A stretch of 64,000 nucleotides of DNA from Chloroflexota bacterium (GTDB lineage: Bacteria; Chloroflexota; Anaerolineae; JAAYZQ01). The DNA is taken from positions 62,001 to 126,000 of the forward strand of contig JAGVRI010000010.1 in assembly GCA_018606645.1 (NCBI GenBank), given 5' to 3'. The translations under genes were made by a program, and so were the position numbers. Below are positions 8,444 to 22,219 of the stretch, in pieces. The stretch's first letter is position 1. Every line of letters starts with the position of its first letter. A model generated the notes under the pieces. The model did not search any database. It was not told the DNA's origin and worked only from the letters and a program-made list of their open reading frames with translations.

Positions 8444-11050
8444 TCACCGGACGGCGGCGACCTTGCGGTACACCTCTTCAGGAGGCCATCGTTCCTCTCC
8501 GACCTGGAGCAACGCCTCCACGGCGATGCCGAACCACCGCTCGTTTTCGGTCAGGTACGGGAAGAGCAGCGTCCAGTCGGCCTCCGTCATCGGCACGAAA
8601 CACCCCCCATTCAACTGGTCCGAGGTCACCAACCGGTACGGGTCGCGGATGTAGACCGCTCCCCCGGAGGCCAGCGAAAAAAGGTTCCCCCCAGGGTAGG
8701 GGGTGGGCAAGGGCTTCATCTGACCGTGGGCATCAAAGCCGATCCCGTTCAGGATCACAAACCCACCGCCATGAAGCGGATCACCAGCCATAAACGACTC
8801 GGCCAGATAGTCCAGGCTGGTCCCATTGATCACCACGCGAGGGCAGCCGGCGGCGTTGATGAGAGGCCGGCCAGCCGTGTTGCCCAGGACATAGGCTTCC
8901 CCCCCCTTGGCCCCGTACAGAAATGCCTGTCCCACATCTCCATGGATAACCAGTTTGCCCGCCTTCAGGATCTGGCCGACCTGGTCCTGAGCGCTGCCGT
9001 GGACATGGACCTCAGCTCCCTGCAGGCCGGAGCCGAGGTAATCGCCGCTGGAGCCATAGACATCAATCCGCACGCCCCTGCCACGCGGCCCCAGCCCACA
9101 GCCGCAGAAGCGGCCTCCGCGCCACTGGTAGGTCACCAGCCGCCGCCATCCCAAGGTCACGGCCTGCACGATCCACCGCGCAGCCGAATCGTCTCCCTCG
9201 GGTGGAAACCGGCCCGCATCTATCACCAGCCATTCTTCCTCTGCCTCGGGCGGGCGGAACGTCCAGCGCATCGTCCAATCCATCCGCCGCCAGCGGCTCT
9301 TGCTTCCTCCAGCCAGCGGAGGGACGTGGTCCAGGATCCGGATCAAGGCTCGATCGACCAGGGCCAACACCGAAGCCCGGCGCTTGGCGCCGGGATCGTA
9401 CGCTCGGTCCCGCAGGCGGGTGAGCAGGGCCACGGCAAACGACCGGGCCTCATCTCCACCATCGGCCAGGGCTCCCATCTCCTGGCAGAATCCGGTCAAT
9501 GTCCCATAATCCCACGCCTGGATCTCCCGCCGGAGTCGCTCCCAGGCTGCATCCACCCCCTCCGGTCCGGCCACGGTCCATCGTTCCAGGTCCAGGGCCG
9601 CCGGCCATAGCCGCGATGAGTCCCGGGTGGCGGTGCTGGGGTTGTTGGGGACCTGATCGAGCGGAGCTCTCAGCCGCGTCCCAAACTTGTCGGTGGCCAC
9701 CAGTTCCATCTTCTGACTCTCGGGGTGGGGTCCCATCGCCCGTCGCACGGTAAAAAGAAATGCTCCTCCGTCGGTGTGGCTCCCGCCGCGCGCATTCCAA
9801 TAAAGGTCTGCCACGGGACAGACGCGCGGATCCTCTGTGGACAGACTCTCCAGAGCAGCGTCGATCGCCTGCTTCTCCGAGGCGATCAGGCCGATCTGGA
9901 CCTTGCCTTCGTGCAGGGCAAAGACTTGGGGACGGAGCATCGAGGTATCGGTGATGCCCAGCAGTTGCCACTGGCCCAGCTCCGGCTGGCTCCGGGCGAT
10001 AATAAAGAACCACGGCCCGTCCGGGGACGCATGAAGATGGGTGGCCTGAACCGCCTTGTAGAGCCGCTGTTTTTCGGGTGGCAGTCGCTCGAAATCCCGC
10101 TCTGTGGTCGGGGCCAGGGCCTCGATGGCCACTTCCAAAGGGTAGCCATAGACCCGGACCAACAGGTCAAAGAGGAGCGCGCCAACTTCTGTGTCGGTCA
10201 GGAACAGGGGAACAATGTTCCGCTGGCGCAAGTAGGTAGCCACCGCGTAATAGTTGGCAAAATCCCCATTGTGCACCAGGGCTTCATTTAACCCGACAAA
10301 AGGATGAGCGCCACCTGGATGCCACACCCGCCCCTTGGTCGGATACCGCTGATGGGCGATCCAGACGTGGGCGCGCAACTCGTCGAGCTGATAATAGGCG
10401 ACCGCCTGCTCGGCATACCCCACGATCTTGAATACCAACAAATCTCTCCCATGGCATAGGACAAAGGCGCGCTTTTCCCCCAGGCTGGCGTAGAACTGCT
10501 GGTTGAGGCGGAAGCTGGTCTGATAGACAAATTCGTCCTCGACCTGACGAGGCGCCGTCTCCTCCAGGCCGTGTTCCGCTGCAAAGCGCGCGAGATGGTC
10601 CGGTTTCACCCGCAGGAAATAGCGCCACACCTCCGGCGGCTGTACCTCCAGCCCGGGCACGTCGCGATAGTCATCCAGGGTGGGCACCGTGTACCCCTGG
10701 AGGATGTCATACTGCGGCGCCAGGATTTCTCGCTCTACTTCGGCGCGGGCGCATGGATCCAGGTAGGCCACCTGGAACAGCGTCGCTTCCTGCAATATCT
10801 CTGGAGTCACCCGCATCTGGGCCGGGCAGAGACCGGCCGCGGCCAGGCCTCCGCCCTTGCCGTTGCCCCGGTTGTGCATCTGCCGCGCCGGGGCAGCGAG
10901 ATGTTTTCCGGCCACCGGCTCCGATGCGGCCAATCCCACCACCCCGCATCCCCCCTCGGCCTCCATCGCCCGGAGGGGCGGCCCAGGCATCCCTTCGACC
11001 AGACTGCGGCGGGAGATAATGATCCGTTCTGCACTGGCATGAGCGTCCAT
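8444..11050 (-). CDS. Glutamate-synthase-like protein: class II glutamine amidotransferase domain fused to GXGXG domain
   Basis: CGVVGLAAS...QMHNRGNGKGGGLAAAGL (N-terminal nucleophile Cys context), HNGDFANYYAV, and C-terminal GXGXG beta-helix (VHGSAQDQVGQILKAGKLVIHGDVGQAFLYGAKGGEAYVLGNTAGRPLINA). Confidence 0.85.
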   Translation of the reverse strand: MDAHASAERIIISRRSLVEGMPGPPLRAMEAEGGCGVVGLAASEPVAGKHLAAPARQMHNRGNGKGGGLAAAGLCPAQMRVTPEILQEATLFQVAYLDPCARAEVEREILAPQYDILQGYTVPTLDDYRDVPGLEVQPPEVWRYFLRVKPDHLARFAAEHGLEETAPRQVEDEFVYQTSFRLNQQFYASLGEKRAFVLCHGRDLLVFKIVGYAEQAVAYYQLDELRAHVWIAHQRYPTKGRVWHPGGAHPFVGLNEALVHNGDFANYYAVATYLRQRNIVPLFLTDTEVGALLFDLLVRVYGYPLEVAIEALAPTTERDFERLPPEKQRLYKAVQATHLHASPDGPWFFIIARSQPELGQWQLLGITDTSMLRPQVFALHEGKVQIGLIASEKQAIDAALESLSTEDPRVCPVADLYWNARGGSHTDGGAFLFTVRRAMGPHPESQKMELVATDKFGTRLRAPLDQVPNNPSTATRDSSRLWPAALDLERWTVAGPEGVDAAWERLRREIQAWDYGTLTGFCQEMGALADGGDEARSFAVALLTRLRDRAYDPGAKRRASVLALVDRALIRILDHVPPLAGGSKSRWRRMDWTMRWTFRPPEAEEEWLVIDAGRFPPEGDDSAARWIVQAVTLGWRRLVTYQWRGGRFCGCGLGPRGRGVRIDVYGSSGDYLGSGLQGAEVHVHGSAQDQVGQILKAGKLVIHGDVGQAFLYGAKGGEAYVLGNTAGRPLINAAGCPRVVINGTSLDYLAESFMAGDPLHGGGFVILNGIGFDAHGQMKPLPTPYPGGNLFSLASGGAVYIRDPYRLVTSDQLNGGCFVPMTEADWTLLFPYLTENERWFGIAVEALLQVGEERWPPEEVYRKVAAVR

Positions 11051-11060
11051 GGTGATCCCT

Positions 11061-11243
11061 CCTCGCGCCCCACGGGTCATGGGAACTCCCTTGAAAATTG
11101 ACCGCTCTCCGCACGCGGGAGTCGAGGCTTTAGCCAGTCAACCGCCTGAAGGCTCCACTCCCCCACCCGCAGTCGCGCCCTCCGCCACCGGCTCCTGGGC
11201 GTTTTCATCCCTCGTGGCGCCCCACGGGGCATGGGAACTCCCT
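11061..11243 (-). repeat. Dispersed intergenic repeat family 1, copy A (with a second partial tail)
   Basis: GCCAGTCAACCGCCTGAAGGCTCCACTCCCCCACCCG...CGGCTCCTGGGCGTTTTCATCCCTCGTGGCGCCCCACGGGGCATGGGAACTCCCT; tail CGCGCCCCACGGGTCATGGGAACTCCCT repeated at 11064. Confidence 0.8.
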
Positions 11244-11268: not shown

Positions 11269-13773
11269 TCACTCCAGATATACCAACAGGTCGGTGCGGC
11301 CGCGCAATTCCCCTACACTCTTGAGCCCCAGACGGCCCAGGATGGCCCGCAGTTGCGTCCGCCATGAGGCATACAGGTTGGCGATGCGGCGGCCTCCCTC
11401 CAGCGGGTCGATCTGGTTCGCCAAGGTCGGATCGGTGGTGGCGATCCCGAAAGGGCATCCCCGGTCCCGTTCACAGGACCCCAGCCGGACGCAACCGAGA
11501 GCGATCAGTTCGGCCGAGCCGATCACACAACCGTCGGCCCCCAGGGCAATGGCTTTGGCGATGTCAAAGGCGGTGCGGACCCCTCCGGAGGCCATCACCA
11601 CCACCTCCTCGCGGATGCCTTCCTCCGCCAAAAAACGGTGCACCTTGGGAATGGCATATTCGAGCGGCATGGCGATGTTCTTCTTGGCGATCTCGGGGGC
11701 CGCCCCGGTGCCGCCATACGCCCCATCCAGGTGGATGATGTGCGCTCCGGCATAGTAACTGCCGACGGCCACCATGTCCACGTCGGTGGGCGTAGACACT
11801 TTGACCGAGATCAGAGCGCGGGGGTTGACGACCCGAATCCAGTCCACATGCTTCTTATGGTCCTCGACCGAATAGACGCTGTGAAAGGGAAACGGGGAAA
11901 AGAGGCTGGCGCCTTCGACGGCCTCGCGCATGGCCGCCACGGCCGGGGTGACCTTGCTGCCCAACAAATGGCCGCCCAGCCCCGGCTTGGCTCCCTGGGC
12001 GTACTTGAACTCTACGATGCGAGCGCGCTGGATGGTATCTTCCCGCACCCCAAACAAGCCGGTGGCGATCTGGGTGATGATGTGGTCGGCATAGGGGAGC
12101 AGCTCATCTGGATAGCCGCCTTCTCCGGTCGAGGTGAAGGAATCCCAGTATTGCGCGGCCCAGGCGCGGGCGATCATGGTCTGGAGGCTGATCGAGCCAA
12201 AGGACATCCCCGCTCCATACCAGGGGTGGGGAATGCGGATACGCGGACGGGTCGGGTCCCGGCGATTGAGCTCCAGGGACAGGTCAATCGGTTCGGAGGC
12301 ATCGGCTTCCCAGTCCTCGGGCTCCAGCGTTTCGTCCAGTTCAAAGACGAAACGCAGGCGGTCAAAGCCTCCTCCCGACCGGCCCACCCGGTACTCCAGC
12401 CCGGATTGGGGTGGACGGCCGGTGCGGGCTTGCTCGGCGGTGGCCAGGATGAGCACCGCCGGCCAGCGCAGGTCGCCCTCCAACTCCCCGTCACCCGGCC
12501 CAGGAGAGATGGCCTCAGCGTGTCCGGTGATGGTGCGTCCGCACAGACGGCGGAACGCCTCCTCTTCCTTGTTCCAGAAGATGGTGCGCCCCAATTCGCC
12601 TCGCAAACGGCGCACCTCGCGCATCCCCATCGCCCCCAACACCTCCAGCAATTGATCCCGCCAGGCGGCCATCAGGTTCACGATGCGTTGCTCCCCCCAG
12701 TCGGCATCGGTCTCCAGGTCTTCCACCGGGCAGGGGCGGCGCACATCCGCCCACAGGGCGCAGCCCAGGGCGACCATCAGCACCAGGTCCACCGCCACCG
12801 CATCGGCTCCACAGGCCAGCGCCTTGGGGACGTGCTCGGCGGCAGCAATCCCGCCGCTGACGACCAGGGTCACCCGGTCCCGCAAGCTCGACCCCACCAG
12901 CCGGTCATGGATCTCGCGCAGGGCATCGCTCAGAAACGAAGGGGGATCGCCCTCGAACGCATAGCCGCTCTCGTCGGCGTAAAGATGCACCATGCCGATC
13001 CCAGAAGCGACCGCGCACTCGACCAGCCTCGGACTGTCGGGACCGAGGGGAACGCGCAGGGCCACGATGCGGTTCGGGTTCGCGCCGCGAAGGAGGTCGG
13101 CCAGGGCCAGCGCCCGGCTCAGTTCCTGCCTTCGCTCCACCTCGATCTCGACCAACCGCGCCCCTCTTACCCAGGGCGAGCGGGGATCGTCGTCGGACAT
13201 GAGCACCGTAGCCACGGCATCGGCGTACTGAGCCAGATCATCGAACCACTCCTGGCTCCGAACGAGAGCCAGCGTGCCCAATCGAGCGGCAGCCCGCACC
13301 ACCGCCATCTGGGCCCCGCGCCCGGGCAACGGCCAGGGCAGCGGTCCCAACAGCACCGGAATCGGGACCTCGATCCAGGGCAGCAATGAGGAGGTCAACT
13401 GACCTGCCGCGTCAAAGTGGAGGGACGAAAGGCGCGGCCCCAGGATCACCGCCGTGGAGATATACTCCCGGCCGTGGATGCCATCGCGGGTCGGACGCAC
13501 GATCTCGGACATATCGAGCCAGATGCTGTCAAACCCCGGGCCGGCGAACGGCCCGCCATAGCCCGCGCCGGAAATCGGGATGCAACCGGTCTCTGCCTGG
13601 TACCAGGTCTGTGTGATGATCTCTGCGGTCCAGTGCTCATCGCCACCCCGCCGTCCCTGCTCAAAGGGGGCATGGCCATACTTGACATAGTCGTCCCCTT
13701 CATTCAGGCGGAATCTGGCCGGGTAGGGAAAACCCGGCGGCGCCGGTTGGGTATCAATGTGATAGCGAGCCAT
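11269..13773 (-). CDS. FMN-binding glutamate-synthase-family protein with a second, degenerate barrel in the N-terminal half
   Basis: Second half: GAGMSFGSISLQTMIARA...STGEGGYP...QGAKPGLGGHLLGSKV...SVKVSTPTDVDMVAVGSYYAGAHIIHLDGAYGGTGAAP...CERDRGCPFGIATTDP; first half carries a parallel but eroded C-terminal barrel pattern. Confidence 0.85.
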   Translation of the reverse strand: MARYHIDTQPAPPGFPYPARFRLNEGDDYVKYGHAPFEQGRRGGDEHWTAEIITQTWYQAETGCIPISGAGYGGPFAGPGFDSIWLDMSEIVRPTRDGIHGREYISTAVILGPRLSSLHFDAAGQLTSSLLPWIEVPIPVLLGPLPWPLPGRGAQMAVVRAAARLGTLALVRSQEWFDDLAQYADAVATVLMSDDDPRSPWVRGARLVEIEVERRQELSRALALADLLRGANPNRIVALRVPLGPDSPRLVECAVASGIGMVHLYADESGYAFEGDPPSFLSDALREIHDRLVGSSLRDRVTLVVSGGIAAAEHVPKALACGADAVAVDLVLMVALGCALWADVRRPCPVEDLETDADWGEQRIVNLMAAWRDQLLEVLGAMGMREVRRLRGELGRTIFWNKEEEAFRRLCGRTITGHAEAISPGPGDGELEGDLRWPAVLILATAEQARTGRPPQSGLEYRVGRSGGGFDRLRFVFELDETLEPEDWEADASEPIDLSLELNRRDPTRPRIRIPHPWYGAGMSFGSISLQTMIARAWAAQYWDSFTSTGEGGYPDELLPYADHIITQIATGLFGVREDTIQRARIVEFKYAQGAKPGLGGHLLGSKVTPAVAAMREAVEGASLFSPFPFHSVYSVEDHKKHVDWIRVVNPRALISVKVSTPTDVDMVAVGSYYAGAHIIHLDGAYGGTGAAPEIAKKNIAMPLEYAIPKVHRFLAEEGIREEVVVMASGGVRTAFDIAKAIALGADGCVIGSAELIALGCVRLGSCERDRGCPFGIATTDPTLANQIDPLEGGRRIANLYASWRTQLRAILGRLGLKSVGELRGRTDLLVYLE

Positions 13774-13916
13774 TGATCCTCCATGAGTACTTACAAAAAA
13801 AGCCCTTAGATGCAGAACCAAATCGGTTCTGGTCTAAGGGCTTCGCGGCCCTAATCTTCAGTTTGCCGCGCCAACCGCCTTATATAGCGTGGCGCTACTC
13901 TATCTATACCACAAAA
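13774..13916 (-). promoter_or_regulatory. Candidate ANTAR-responsive terminator/antiterminator leader
   Basis: Between ANTAR regulator and FMN-barrel gene; P1 hairpin 13868-13895 (hexaloop AUAUAA), P2 hairpin 13837-13852 (hexaloop CGCGAA), P2 overlaps the terminator 5' arm. Confidence 0.65.
13794..13842 (-). terminator. Intrinsic terminator upstream of the FMN-barrel gene
   Basis: Minus strand AGCCCUUAGA-cc-AGAACC..GGUUCU-gca-UCUAAGGGCU followed by U-tract (13794-13801). Confidence 0.9.
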
Positions 13917-14480
13917 TCACGAAAATGTCAAAATCTCCTCAGCTACCTGACGCATGGTCTGCCGTCGACGCCGGGCGCGATGCTGGATCTCGCGGAATGC
14001 CTCCTGTTCGGTGAGCCCCTCGCGCTCCATCAGCACCCGCTTGGCCTGGGCGACGATGGCCCGCGCCTCCAGCGCCTCCTGATAGCTGGATGCCTCCTGG
14101 CGGAGAGCCTGCATCTCGGTGAAACGGGCCACGGCCAATTCGAGAGTCGGCGCCAGCTCCGCTTCGCGGATTGGCTTGACCAGGTAGGCTTGAATTACCT
14201 CGGTGGCGGCGGCCCGCTCGACCAGATCGCGTTCGCTGTAGGCGGTGAGCATGACCACCGGCATGGGGCACTGCCGGGCCATCGCTTCCGCTACATCCAG
14301 GCCGCTCATGCCCGGCATGCGGATATCCAGAATGACCAGGTCGGGATGGAGCAGGCGGGCTAACCGGAGCGCGGTCACGCCATCGGCAGCGGCTCCGACG
14401 ATAGTATGTCCCATCTCCTCCAGCATCGTCCTAAGCCCCATCCGCGTCAGGGCCTCGTCATCAGCGATCAGAACGCGCAT
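13917..14480 (-). CDS. Response regulator with ANTAR RNA-binding output domain
   Basis: REC: MRVLIADDEALTRMGL...LVILDIRMPGMSGLD...VMLTAYS; ANTAR: ARAIVAQAKRVLMEREGLTEQEAFREIQHRARRRRQTMRQVAEEIL. Confidence 0.95.
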   Translation of the reverse strand: MRVLIADDEALTRMGLRTMLEEMGHTIVGAAADGVTALRLARLLHPDLVILDIRMPGMSGLDVAEAMARQCPMPVVMLTAYSERDLVERAAATEVIQAYLVKPIREAELAPTLELAVARFTEMQALRQEASSYQEALEARAIVAQAKRVLMEREGLTEQEAFREIQHRARRRRQTMRQVAEEILTFS

Positions 14481-14648: not shown

Positions 14649-16304
14649 TTACACCCCTCTGGTCTCCAGGCCCCTTGGCTCCTTACCGTTGATGTCCAGC
14701 GGGATGGTGATCCGCGCCACCGTCCCGTGGTCGCCCGTCAGCGACCAGTCCCCGTGGAGGTCCTCGCGCACCAGCGTCTCGACAATCTCCAGCCCCAGTT
14801 GACGAAGCGAGTCGACGGCCAGGCCCACCCCATCGTCCCGCACCTCGACCGTCAGTTCGCCAGGCGACCGCCGCAGGGAGATGGCCACCCGTCCCTGGGT
14901 CCGGCCGGTGAACGCGTGTTCCATCGCATTCTGGACCAACTCATTCACCGCCAGTGCTAGTGAAGTGACCGCTTGCGAGGGAAGAGCTACTTCGTCCCCT
15001 TGAATCGTGACCTCCACGTCCAGGCCCGGTCGGCTCATGTTCTGAACCACGGCCTGCCCCACCCGGGTGAGCACCTCTTTTACGTCCACCAGTCGGAATC
15101 CCCGTTGGGAGAGCACCTCGTGGACCGCAGCAATACTTAAAATGCGGTTAATGCTTTCCGACAGCACCTCGCGAGCCGATACCGGGCGCCCGCCCCGCAG
15201 TTGCAGGCGCAGCAGCATGGCTACATTCTGCAGATTGTTCTTGATGCGATGATGCATCTCGCGGATGATGACGGCATTGGTCACCAGCCGGGCATTCTCG
15301 ATAGCCAGGGCTGTCTGGTTGGCCAGAGTGGAAAAGAGAGCGATCTCGTCAGGGGTGAAGCGATGAGGTTCGGCCGTGTAACAATTCAGGACGCCGATGA
15401 TCCGTTCCCGAACGGCGAGAGGAACGCACAGCAGCGAGACAAGCCCTTCCTGGCAGGCGACCTCGGTGTGGCGATAGCGCGGATCCTGACGGACATCCAG
15501 GCTGGTAGTCGGCCGGCCCGATTGAGCCACCGTTCCCACAATCCCTTCCCCTACTTTGAGCGGGGGCTTGTTCCGGTAGACGGGGCTGATGGGCCAGGCA
15601 GACCTCAGAACCAACTCGCCCGTCGTCTCGTCCAGGAGCATCAGCGAACAGAGGCGAGCCTTCATTACCTGCGCCGCCATCTCGACGATCACGTCCAGCA
15701 TCTCATCCAGGTATAGAGGAGAGGTCAGCGTTTCGCTGACTTCGGCCAGCGTCGAAAGCTCCGCGATCTGGCGCTGCATCCCTTCGTAGAGCATCGCTTT
15801 TTCCAGCGCCCCGGCGGCCAGGTCGGCGATGAGGCTGAGCAGGTCCACTTCATCGGCAGAGAATTCGTGATAGGCCCGGGTCTGGACATTCATGGCACCG
15901 ATCACCCGCCCCTGATTGATCAGTGGGACGGCTAACAGCGATTGAAAGCGAGTCTCTTTCGTTTCCGGCAGGAATTTGAAGCGGGGATCGCGTGCCGCAT
16001 CCGCCACAGCCACCGCCTGGCCGGTCTGAGCGGCCCAACCGGTCAATCCCTCTCCCAGTCGCAGGCGCGCCTGCCCGACTGCCTCGGCGGCCAGGCCGGT
16101 GGTGGCTTTGAGCACCAGGTTTTCCCCATCCGCATCCAGCAGATAGATCGAACAGGAATCCATCCCCATGACGTCGGCCGTGCGGCGGGTGATCAGTTCC
16201 AGGGTGGCATCCAGCTCCCAGGCGGCGTTCAAGGTGCGGCTGATCTCGCGCAAGGTCGCCAGTTGAGCCGTCTTCTGCCGGAGTTGATGCTCCAGATCCT
16301 GCAC
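14649..16304 (-). CDS. GAF-GAF sensor histidine kinase (HisKA_2/HWE type)
   Basis: Two GAF domains; REMHHRIKNNLQNVAMLLRLQLR phosphoacceptor motif; ATPase motifs LALAVNELVQNAMEHAF, DDGVGL. Confidence 0.92.
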   Translation of the reverse strand: MQDLEHQLRQKTAQLATLREISRTLNAAWELDATLELITRRTADVMGMDSCSIYLLDADGENLVLKATTGLAAEAVGQARLRLGEGLTGWAAQTGQAVAVADAARDPRFKFLPETKETRFQSLLAVPLINQGRVIGAMNVQTRAYHEFSADEVDLLSLIADLAAGALEKAMLYEGMQRQIAELSTLAEVSETLTSPLYLDEMLDVIVEMAAQVMKARLCSLMLLDETTGELVLRSAWPISPVYRNKPPLKVGEGIVGTVAQSGRPTTSLDVRQDPRYRHTEVACQEGLVSLLCVPLAVRERIIGVLNCYTAEPHRFTPDEIALFSTLANQTALAIENARLVTNAVIIREMHHRIKNNLQNVAMLLRLQLRGGRPVSAREVLSESINRILSIAAVHEVLSQRGFRLVDVKEVLTRVGQAVVQNMSRPGLDVEVTIQGDEVALPSQAVTSLALAVNELVQNAMEHAFTGRTQGRVAISLRRSPGELTVEVRDDGVGLAVDSLRQLGLEIVETLVREDLHGDWSLTGDHGTVARITIPLDINGKEPRGLETRGV

Positions 16305-16319
16305 CGCCGACCTGCCCCC

Positions 16320-18050
16320 TCAGTCTTCGTGATAATGGTTGGTGATCGGGAACCGGCGATCCTTGCCAAAAGCGCGAGGAGTAATCCGCACCCCGGGAGG
16401 GGCCTGGCGACGCTTGTACTCGGCCCGATCCACCATGCGAATGACACGGGTCACCGTCGCCCGGTCAAAACCGAGGGCCACGATCTCCTCCAGCCCCCGG
16501 TCCTCTTCCACATAGGCGTGCAAGATGGCATCCAGCAACTCATACGGAGGCAGGGTATCCTGGTCCGTCTGGTTGGGCCGGAGCTCGGCGCTGGGAGCCT
16601 TGTCGAAAATGCGCTGCGGGATGACTGCCCGGCCGGCCCGGTCGTTGACATAGGCCGCCAACTGATAGACGAGCATTTTCGGCACATCTTTGAGCACCGC
16701 ATAGCCGCCAGCCATGTCCCCATAGAGCGTGGCGTATCCCACACTCATCTCGCTCTTGTTGCCGGTGGTCAACACCAGCCACCCGAACTTGTTCGACAAG
16801 GCCATGAGGATATTGCCCCGGATGCGGGCCTGGAGGTTTTCCTCGGTCACATCCGGATCGCGGCCGGCGAACGGGCCGGCCAACATCTCCAGATATGCCT
16901 GGAATGTGTCGTCCATGGGCACGGTCAACAAGCGAATGCCCAGGTTCTCGGCTAGAAGCATCGCATCCTCGCGGCTCTCCGGCGATGAATAACGGGAGGG
17001 CATGAACACACCGGTGACGCTCTCACAGCCAAGAGCATCGGCGGCGATGGCGGCCGTGAGCGCAGAGTCAATCCCCCCGGAGAGCCCCAGGACCACCTCG
17101 CGGAACCCGTTCTTGCGCACATAGTCCCGCGTTCCCAGGACCAGCGCCTGATACACCTCGGCCACCGGCTCCAGAAGGGGCACGACCCTCGGGGACAGGC
17201 CCGACGGTTGAGGCCGAGAAGGAACCGGCTCCAGGGTGATTCGCTCCACCGGCACTGATGCCCGCCGCGCCCGTGCCTGACGCTGTCGAGGATCGTGGAG
17301 CCTCTGCCGAAAGACCGAGGATAGCTCCAGATCGGCGACGAGCAAATCTTCGGCAAACTGCATTGCTCGGGCGACCAGTTCCCCCCGCTCATCAAAGATG
17401 GCGCTGCCCCCGTCAAAGACCAGCTCATCCTGCCCGCCGACCAGATTGCAAAAGGCCACATACACGATATTGTCGGCAGCGCGGGTGGCCAGCATCCGCT
17501 CCCGTCTGGCGCTCTTGCCCCTATGGTACGGGGATGCAGAGAGGTTGATCACCAGTTGTGCCCCGGCCAGGACCTGATCGTCTGTCGGTCCAATCGGAAC
17601 CCAGATATCCTCACAGATGTTGACCCCCACCAGGACCTCGCCCAGGGAAAAGACCAACGGTCTCCCCCCGGCCTGGAAGTATCGCTCCTCGTCAAACACC
17701 GCATAGTTGGGCAGGTAGGCCTTGTGGTAGACCCCTGCCACCTGACCCTCGTGGAGCACCGCCGCCGCGTTGTACAGGTCATCCGTCCGGTCAACAAAGC
17801 CGACGATGGCGGTGATGCCTCGGATCGCCCGCGCCATCCGGTGCAAGGCGCACAAATTGGCGTCCACAAAGCTGGGCTTAAGAAGCAGGTCTTCCGGTGG
17901 ATAGCCGACCAGGGCCAGCTCTGGAAAGGCGACCACCTCGGCGCCGAGGGCCTGGGCCTGGGTGATGTACTCCAGGATCTTCTGCTGGTTCCCCTCCAGG
18001 TCTCCGACGGTGGGATTGATCTGAGCCAGAGCGATGCGTATCCGATTCAA
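16320..18050 (-). CDS. nadE: Glutamine-dependent NAD+ synthetase
   Basis: N-terminal nitrilase/amidase domain (VAFPELALVGYPPEDL, VNICEDIW) and C-terminal synthetase P-loop (VVLGLSGGIDSALTAAIA). Confidence 0.96.
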   Translation of the reverse strand: MNRIRIALAQINPTVGDLEGNQQKILEYITQAQALGAEVVAFPELALVGYPPEDLLLKPSFVDANLCALHRMARAIRGITAIVGFVDRTDDLYNAAAVLHEGQVAGVYHKAYLPNYAVFDEERYFQAGGRPLVFSLGEVLVGVNICEDIWVPIGPTDDQVLAGAQLVINLSASPYHRGKSARRERMLATRAADNIVYVAFCNLVGGQDELVFDGGSAIFDERGELVARAMQFAEDLLVADLELSSVFRQRLHDPRQRQARARRASVPVERITLEPVPSRPQPSGLSPRVVPLLEPVAEVYQALVLGTRDYVRKNGFREVVLGLSGGIDSALTAAIAADALGCESVTGVFMPSRYSSPESREDAMLLAENLGIRLLTVPMDDTFQAYLEMLAGPFAGRDPDVTEENLQARIRGNILMALSNKFGWLVLTTGNKSEMSVGYATLYGDMAGGYAVLKDVPKMLVYQLAAYVNDRAGRAVIPQRIFDKAPSAELRPNQTDQDTLPPYELLDAILHAYVEEDRGLEEIVALGFDRATVTRVIRMVDRAEYKRRQAPPGVRITPRAFGKDRRFPITNHYHED

Positions 18051-20782: not shown

Positions 20783-22219
20783 GTGAAGCCGACGTTCCAG
20801 GTTTTGAGCGACAAGGAGTTATGGTCTATTCATTGTGCCTCCCTGGATACCCTGGAAAACGTTGGGATTGTCGTACATGATGAGCGAGGGCGTGAGTATC
20901 TTCGGGCAGCCGGAGCTCTGGTCAGCGGTTCCGATCGAGTGCGTCTCCCGGCCAGGCTGGTCAAGAAGGCGCTGGATCAGTGCGCTCCGGTGGTGTTGCT
21001 CTACGGTCGGGAGGGCCGGCCACCGATGCGCGTCGGCGGAGGACGGGTCTACTTTGGAACGTGCGGCTACCCCACTGCCGTAATCGACTGGCAGAGCGGG
21101 GAACTCCGAGCCCCCCGCCTGGCCGACCTGGAAGACACAGCCCGCCTCACCGACATGCTCGACAATATTGACTTTATCATGCCTCCCCTTTCGCCCGACG
21201 ATGTCCCGGTCGAATTTGTGGACCGGTATCAATGGCTGGCCACCCTTCTCTATACTCGCAAGCACATTCTCAACCAGTGCTACGGCGCGGCAGGATTCCG
21301 CGACCTGCTGGCCATGGCCTCCGAGGTTGCCGGGGGCCAGGAAGCGCTACAGCGTGAGCCTTTTGTCTCGCTCCTGGTGTCGGCGACCAGTCCTCTGACG
21401 ATCCGCGCCGATGCGTCGGAGGTGATCATCGGCGGCGCGGAACACTCGCTTCCTCTCTTTATCTTTGCCGGCCCGATGGCGGGCGCGACCGCCCCTTCGA
21501 CCCTGGCAGGGTCCTTGACCCTGGCCAATGCGGAAGTGCTGGCCGCGATTGTCCTGGCCAAAGCGGTCAATCCCAACGTTCCGGTGATCTATGCCAGTTG
21601 GGCCAGGACCTTGGATATGAAGTATGGCAATGTGACATTGGGTGCGCCCGAGTTTGCCATGCTCCGGGTCGCCTCGGCCCAGATGGCCCGGATGTATGGA
21701 CTGCCGTGCGGCGGCGGCGGCTTGCTGACCGACTCCAAGTTGCCGGATGCCCAGGCCGGGTACGAGAAGCTGGGCACGGCGCTGCTTCCCGCCCTGGCCG
21801 GTCTCAACATGATCTGCGGCGCTGCCGCCTACGGGGCCGAACTAGTTCTCACCCTGGAAGGATATGTCATTGATGATGAAGTTGCCGGCTGGGTCAAGCG
21901 GGTCCTGGCCGGGTTTGAATTGGACGAAGACCGTCTGGCTCTCGGCCTGATCGCTGCCCAGGGGCCGGGTGGGCAGTTTATCAAAGAAGAACACACGTTG
22001 CGCTATTTCCGCCAGGAGATGTGGATCCCCGCTCTGTCGGACCGGGAAGGGACCACCGGTTGGCTGGACCGGGGTGGATTGGACGTGCGCGCTCGGGCGC
22101 GGCGGGTAATCGAGAAGAAGCTCAAGCAGTACCGGCCCCCATCGCTCCCGGCGGGCACAGCCGAACGGCTACGGGCGATCATCGACCGCAGCGTGGCCGA
22201 GTCAACGCATACTCAATGA
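20783..22219 (+). CDS. Trimethylamine methyltransferase (MttB/COG5598) family protein, no in-frame amber codon
   Basis: Typical MttB-family sequence (LLTDSKLPDAQAGYEKLGTALLPALAGLNMICGAA); GTG start with GGAGG RBS; uninterrupted 478-aa ORF, so a non-pyrrolysine member. Confidence 0.88.
   Translation: MKPTFQVLSDKELWSIHCASLDTLENVGIVVHDERGREYLRAAGALVSGSDRVRLPARLVKKALDQCAPVVLLYGREGRPPMRVGGGRVYFGTCGYPTAVIDWQSGELRAPRLADLEDTARLTDMLDNIDFIMPPLSPDDVPVEFVDRYQWLATLLYTRKHILNQCYGAAGFRDLLAMASEVAGGQEALQREPFVSLLVSATSPLTIRADASEVIIGGAEHSLPLFIFAGPMAGATAPSTLAGSLTLANAEVLAAIVLAKAVNPNVPVIYASWARTLDMKYGNVTLGAPEFAMLRVASAQMARMYGLPCGGGGLLTDSKLPDAQAGYEKLGTALLPALAGLNMICGAAAYGAELVLTLEGYVIDDEVAGWVKRVLAGFELDEDRLALGLIAAQGPGGQFIKEEHTLRYFRQEMWIPALSDREGTTGWLDRGGLDVRARARRVIEKKLKQYRPPSLPAGTAERLRAIIDRSVAESTHTQ

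Follow-up and report, generated by a model that had tools for sequence, protein, structure and literature searches.

The question raised by this locus is whether the 143-nt gap that separates the gene for an ANTAR response regulator from a glutamate-synthase-like gene (13916-13774, minus strand) is an antitermination leader, and whether the two-component system encoded just upstream controls it. The window, as the whole 64,000-nt stretch of DNA that was analysed is called here, comes from a member of the Chloroflexota, probably of the Anaerolineae to judge by its closest named relatives, and carries the following genes around this gap.

16320..18050, minus strand: NAD+ synthase of the glutamine-hydrolysing type, the upstream neighbour (NCBIfam PRK13981 4.6e-228)
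14649..16304, minus strand: sensor histidine kinase with two GAF domains, HisKA_2 and HATPase_c (Pfam GAF_2 1.6e-50, HisKA_2 4.7e-18, HATPase_c 2.1e-10)
13917..14480, minus strand: ANTAR response regulator of 187 aa, receiver plus ANTAR (Pfam Response_reg 1.4e-25, ANTAR 1.4e-17)
11269..13773, minus strand: glutamate-synthase-like FMN-barrel protein of 834 aa (Pfam Glu_synthase 1.1e-104)
8444..11080, minus strand: amidotransferase-like and GXGXG (GltB-like) protein (Pfam GXGXG 7.6e-11, GATase_6 weak)

The FMN-barrel gene has its ATG at 13773 and a GGAGG at 13782-13778, and the top NCBIfam match of its protein is the glutamate synthase large subunit, far under the cut-off. The gene at 8444..11080 is probably in one operon with it, and in most related loci a GXGXG/amidotransferase-like gene likewise lies 3′ of the FMN gene. 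Elsewhere in the window, Rfam PYLIS_3 (the pyrrolysine insertion sequence of mttB) was matched with 60.4 bits at 21725-21824 on the plus strand, within an MttB-family gene (20783-22219, plus strand) that is followed 3′ by a corrinoid-protein gene and branched-chain-type ABC transporter genes. This gene has a 478-aa reading frame without an in-frame stop and therefore probably encodes a non-pyrrolysine MttB homolog.

The hairpins P1 and P2 and the intrinsic terminator, which the sequence-only reading had placed in the gap, were all confirmed, and a promoter was read directly in front of them.

13903..13931, minus strand: leader promoter, near-consensus and sigma70-type, with TTGACA at 13931-13926, a 17-nt spacer and TATAGA at 13908-13903
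13868..13895, minus strand: hairpin P1, with GCGCCA at 13895-13890, CGCU at 13889-13886, loop AUAUAA at 13885-13880, GGCG at 13879-13876 and UGGCGC at 13873-13868
13837..13852, minus strand: predicted antiterminator hairpin P2, with AGGGC at 13852-13848, hexaloop CGCGAA (C1..G4-A5-A6) at 13847-13842 and GCCCU at 13841-13837
13795..13842, minus strand: intrinsic terminator, a 10-bp outer stem with arms AGCCCUUAGA at 13842-13833 and UCUAAGGGCU at 13810-13801, an apical stem, and a run of seven U from 13801

The score of the promoter is matched by about 0.5% of shuffles. It overlaps the final codons of the ANTAR gene and its predicted start at about 13896 is just 5′ of P1; near-consensus promoters in the same place, just 5′ of P2, are found in most related leaders. 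With a predicted promoter of its own, the window leader is a separate transcription unit. A simple terminator and promoter scanner found neither element, owing to its loop-size rule and to a -10 rule demanding T at the last position. Bases 13842-13837 are common to the 3′ arm of P2 and the 5′ arm of the terminator, and the two structures are for this reason mutually exclusive, as had been proposed. The leader folds with -49.2 kcal/mol vs -32.8 for shuffles (z = -4.7), and the predicted folds differ with length, the nascent RNA ending before the terminator 3′ arm forming P1 and P2 and the full RNA forming the terminator.

The earlier claim of an ANTAR-linked terminator/antiterminator leader in front of the glutamate-synthase-like gene held up beyond the window, as the leader recurs at orthologous loci and before other nitrogen genes, has a covarying terminator stem, often adjoins an ANTAR gene and co-occurs with one ANTAR clade. 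P2 and the terminator are present 5′ of the orthologous FMN gene in three other genomes, namely G074 (L032/L165), where the kinase and ANTAR genes are adjacent to the leader, and those of L060 and L067. An ANTAR gene lies directly 5′ of the leader in the window and in L165, L009, L140, L141, L143-L146, L171 and L002. Other arrangements occur as well: in L071 about 40 nt separate the ANTAR gene from the FMN gene 3′ of it, with no leader, and in L072 and L109 the kinase and ANTAR genes are upstream with an NAD-synthase-like reading frame between. The genomes of these last three loci, which carry an R-type ANTAR (defined below) near the same genes, gave no leader with the covariance model.

This model was built from 29 leaders, and a pattern search of 397 genomes of the window's class gave 44 matches vs 20 for a reversed-pattern control. 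The 39 distinct strong model matches precede nitrogen-assimilation genes or an ANTAR gene in 30 cases, comprising 18 ammonium transporters (amt), 6 glutamine synthetases (glnA/glnN), 4 gltB-like genes, 1 nadE (in another genome, L156) and 1 second ANTAR gene; three of the 39 are CCAGCA hairpins, two of them before amt. The other strong matches include those before a LysE-like permease, an APC-like permease, an SLC13-like transporter and an ABC permease, names that were read from the sequences alone. In the window's own genome the leader described here was the only one found by pattern and covariance-model search. The only ammonium-transporter-family gene found there is divergent (G000:C4:255626-256924), its matched frame contains a TAA, and its surroundings yielded no leader. 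Nor were such leaders present upstream of the 30 top-scoring amt genes, most sampled amt genes being from lineages without leaders. Among the matches rejected as false positives of the model are T-boxes before lysC (L289, L318), with L278, L279, L287 and L301 looking alike, and attenuator-like matches at argC and ilvB.

Several further arrangements were seen in the class. Leaders before SLC13-like transporters, LysE-like exporters and APC-like permeases (L284:3998-4056, L270, L274, L286:9677-9738, L280, L288) suggest extra regulon members. Two or three leaders per nitrogen-gene cluster, some back to back before one gene, occur in L291, L286, L284, L288, L290 and L305. Apparent full-length glutamate synthase genes (gltB) are preceded by leaders in L294, L298, L304 and L309, all of family f14, and in L316; their P2 loops are UACGAA, GACGAA or UAUGAA, with G4 kept and position 1 variable (that of L316, AACGUC, being weaker), and a GC-rich GGCGCC-type hairpin lies immediately 5′ of P2. 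In family f43 (L244, L245, L246, L266, L267, L276) serA and amt are preceded by a GGCGCC..UGACGCCGCCCAAU hairpin, to which most of these loci add GGGC-CCAGCA-GCCC and a terminator. These CCAGCA hairpins have a C1/G4 loop in an architecture that differs from the main family, and are possibly another element.

In the terminator stem of the 29 leaders 96.1% of cells are paired and 57 cells are changed on both sides vs 15.6 in shuffles, a signal that is abolished by sliding the partner. The core of the P2 stem (GGC/GCC) hardly varies in the family, so that covariation neither supports nor refutes P2 pairing, and related leaders keep the core GGCC(N)(N)GAAGCC. Counts from the 39 strong leaders, which are biased by the model, give G4 in 39/39 and C1 in 38/39. 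Circularity was avoided in an unbiased search for GGGC-N6-GCCC followed by GGGCTTTT, with the loop left free. Where this was followed by a strong terminator of at least 8 contiguous pairs (n=14), G4 was found in 10/14, C1 in 9/14 and A6 in 12/14, vs 19/66, 13/66 and 10/66, respectively, with weak terminators (n=66). The deviation of the loops from A1/G4 noted at the outset is borne out: the G at position 4 is kept, as it is in known ANTAR targets, but the first position is mostly C and not the textbook A. Canonical A1/G4 P2 loops are also present, in L242 before amt and in L243 before an apparent alanine dehydrogenase. In the EutV-RNA structure G4 is the sole base-specific contact and A1 contacts none (PMC8934654), and a C1 loop is for that reason compatible with ANTAR binding.

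The window protein is of the receiver-ANTAR class (PF03861), with both the receiver and the C-terminal ANTAR domain present, and its best solved relatives are Rv1626 (1s8n) and EutV (6wsh, 6ww6), both matched over full length. It keeps the EutV residues that contact G4, namely R142, K149, E160 and an aromatic at 164 (Y164=F). It differs in K143=A, K147=Q and M172=R, which counts against control by this protein, as the three positions are needed for RNA binding by EutV; they are not defining for the ANTAR family. Nearly all leader-adjacent ANTARs are R172 (R-type) and form one clade (support 0.84-0.92), separate from a 49-member M172 group that occurs in most genomes of the class. An R-type ANTAR was found in 20/22 leader-bearing vs 4/27 leader-free genomes (Fisher P = 7e-8), where the 4/27 includes G039 by score only and the P value, which ignores relatedness, is optimistic; the leader-bearing genomes span about 13 families. 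The exceptions are G013 and G075, which have a leader and only M-type ANTARs in the sequence examined, and G009, G012, G034 and probably G039, with an R-type or similarly divergent ANTAR and no leader detected. Position 172 was rejected as the determinant of C1 vs A1, as G184 combines an R-type ANTAR with an A1 loop. The M172-type clade (e.g. G000:C2:371791-371949, L004-L030) is itself highly conserved, forms the second ANTAR in most genomes of the class and does not track C1 leaders.

P1 and P2 had been read as the tandem hexaloops of a canonical ANTAR switch, both bound in the window with relaxed loop specificity, and this we now regard as unlikely. Both hairpins close six-nucleotide loops, both are predicted to form in the nascent RNA, and a minority of related leaders is genuinely dual, including the orthologous L165 with the A1/G4 P1 loop AUAGUC. 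However, when P1 was called as a hexaloop hairpin of at least 6 bp near P2 with the loop sequence unspecified, it was absent in 33 of the 43 clear-promoter leaders among 54 of nitrogen type, and present in 10/43. All ten loops have G4 (CUUGAC, AUAGUC, CAGGGU, CACGGU, CGUGAC twice, CUCGAC, CGAGAC, GACGUA and GUGGAC), on stems that vary in sequence (GAGUGC/GCACUC, GAAUGC/GCAUUC, GCAUUC/GAAUGC, GGGUGC/GCACCC), whereas the window P1 has a 4-bp upper stem and the loop AUAUAA, which lacks G4, and is not kept in related leaders. Its linker to P2 is about 15 nt vs about 2-11 nt in the P1-bearing relatives, and the orthologous leaders of L060 and L067 have their start about 19 nt 5′ of P2 and no comparable P1. 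Judged by these sequence features, the window P1 is not of the conserved P1 kind. Upstream 3-bp G4 hexaloops were not enriched in the 33 leaders lacking P1 (3 observed, 2.0 expected). The commonest loop size in upstream hairpins with 5 bp or more was 6 nt (22 observed vs 7.6 expected), with 8-nt loops (19 vs 7.1) and 4-nt loops (15 vs 7.7) also in excess. EutV requires both hexaloops in vivo (PMC3369931), which counts against a switch of the single-hexaloop form that predominates here; according to the structural paper, a single hexaloop is the minimal ANTAR target, and the in vivo need for a second is left unexplained there (PMC8934654).

A riboswitch or T-box-like attenuator that senses glutamine or uncharged tRNA directly, with the ANTAR gene a mere neighbour, would fit main targets that are all related to nitrogen or amino acids, and the weak model matches do include the T-box antiterminators before lysC (L289, L318), which have a similar GCGAAGCCC and are recognised by GGGTGGAACCGCG. 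We nevertheless consider it very improbable. The leader matches no Rfam family, T-box included (at the gathering threshold for the window and at E<=1 for eight leader loci), the window leader has no GGUGG motif and shows neither the T-box sequence GGUGGNACCGCG nor a specifier stem, and many members have only about 15-35 nt from predicted start to P2, too short for an aptamer or specifier loop; moreover the conserved part is the G4 hexaloop, and the leader tracks one ANTAR clade genome-wide. Also very improbable is a constitutive terminator that insulates the ANTAR gene from the next operon, with P2 incidental. A terminator is ordinary behind a regulator gene, and P2 stem pairing is not demonstrable by covariation. 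Against this, the promoter lies 5′ and the gene with its ribosome site 3′ of the terminator, which is therefore part of the leader of that gene; the P2 sequence GGCCNNGAAGCC is retained whereas the terminator stem is free to vary, and amt, glnA and gltB-like genes are preceded by the same arrangement even at loci without an adjacent ANTAR gene.

The gap in the window is thus, in our assessment, very probably an antitermination leader under the control of the ANTAR two-component system whose genes lie immediately 5′ of it. Transcription from the promoter that overlaps the 3′ end of the ANTAR gene would give a short leader RNA, which by default would fold into the strong terminator and halt transcription before the glutamate-synthase-like operon. 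The GAF-domain kinase would phosphorylate the ANTAR regulator in response to a signal which, because of the target genes, is presumed to be nitrogen or amino-acid status, and phosphorylation would, as with EutV and NasR, lead to dimerisation. The dimer would bind the P2 hexaloop CGCGAA, contacting G4, and stabilise P2; with P2 held, the terminator 5′ arm would be occupied and the polymerase would read through. Control in cis by the neighbouring kinase and ANTAR protein, as originally proposed, is plausible for the window but too narrow: the same leader stands in front of amt, glnA, gltB-like and nadE genes, in many cases at a distance from every ANTAR gene, a distribution that indicates regulon-wide action in trans. 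The leader would be part of a Chloroflexota regulon (amt, glnA, gltB-like, gltB, nadE) that is served by a distinct ANTAR clade, with most members carrying the single P2 hexaloop and a minority a true P1 hexaloop. With lower confidence, though on balance favouring it, we propose that a central nitrogen-assimilation regulon is under the control of the Chloroflexota R172 ANTAR clade, which would act on promoter-proximal leaders that have a single C1-N-N-G4-A-A hexaloop. If true, antitermination would proceed without a recruiting P1 hairpin, unlike that by EutV, and a whole switch could be as short as about 75 nt.

Among known systems, NasR has a fused nitrate-sensing domain, whereas in the window a receiver-ANTAR protein is paired with a GAF kinase; AmiR is under the control of a partner protein. 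The leader RNAs of nasF and amiE both carry A1/G4, unlike the C1/G4 of the window P2. Both NasR-nasF and AmiR-amiE resemble the window in ANTAR antitermination of nitrogen genes via a hexaloop 5′ of a terminator (PMC3369931). The EutV/EutW-eut leaders of Enterococcus faecalis (PMC3369931, PMC8934654) share with it a two-component ANTAR regulator and partner histidine kinase, a P2 hexaloop with G4 that overlaps an intrinsic terminator, and the residues R142, K149, E160 and aromatic 164. They differ in having two hexaloops with A1 and G4, where the Chloroflexota leaders have mostly one with position 1 mainly C, and in M172, K143 and K147, where the window protein has Arg, Ala and Gln. The actinobacterial ANTAR RNAs show a similarly looser loop conservation, with >50% A1 and G4 reported, but are dual stem-loops, many overlapping ribosome sites or in coding regions and few linked to terminators (PMC8164766).

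The kind of system is known, as ANTAR control was already predicted in other phyla: Desulfotomaculum and other bacteria have candidate leaders 5′ of genes for glutamate synthase, glutamine synthetase, ammonium transporters and P-II (PMC3369931). Those regulons were found with a dual-hexaloop A1/G4 model, and the main text of that paper does not mention Chloroflexi; A1-based models could miss the present family because its loops are C1. A literature search found no paper describing such a system in Chloroflexota, and, within the literature searched, the regulon in Chloroflexota, the C1 hexaloop, the prevalence of leaders with a single hexaloop and the R172 ANTAR clade are new. The family holds natural one- and two-hexaloop leaders in the same regulon, sometimes before orthologous genes, and the role of P1 is therefore directly testable. 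It also provides a testable candidate for the control of ammonium uptake and of glutamine and glutamate synthesis in the Chloroflexota.
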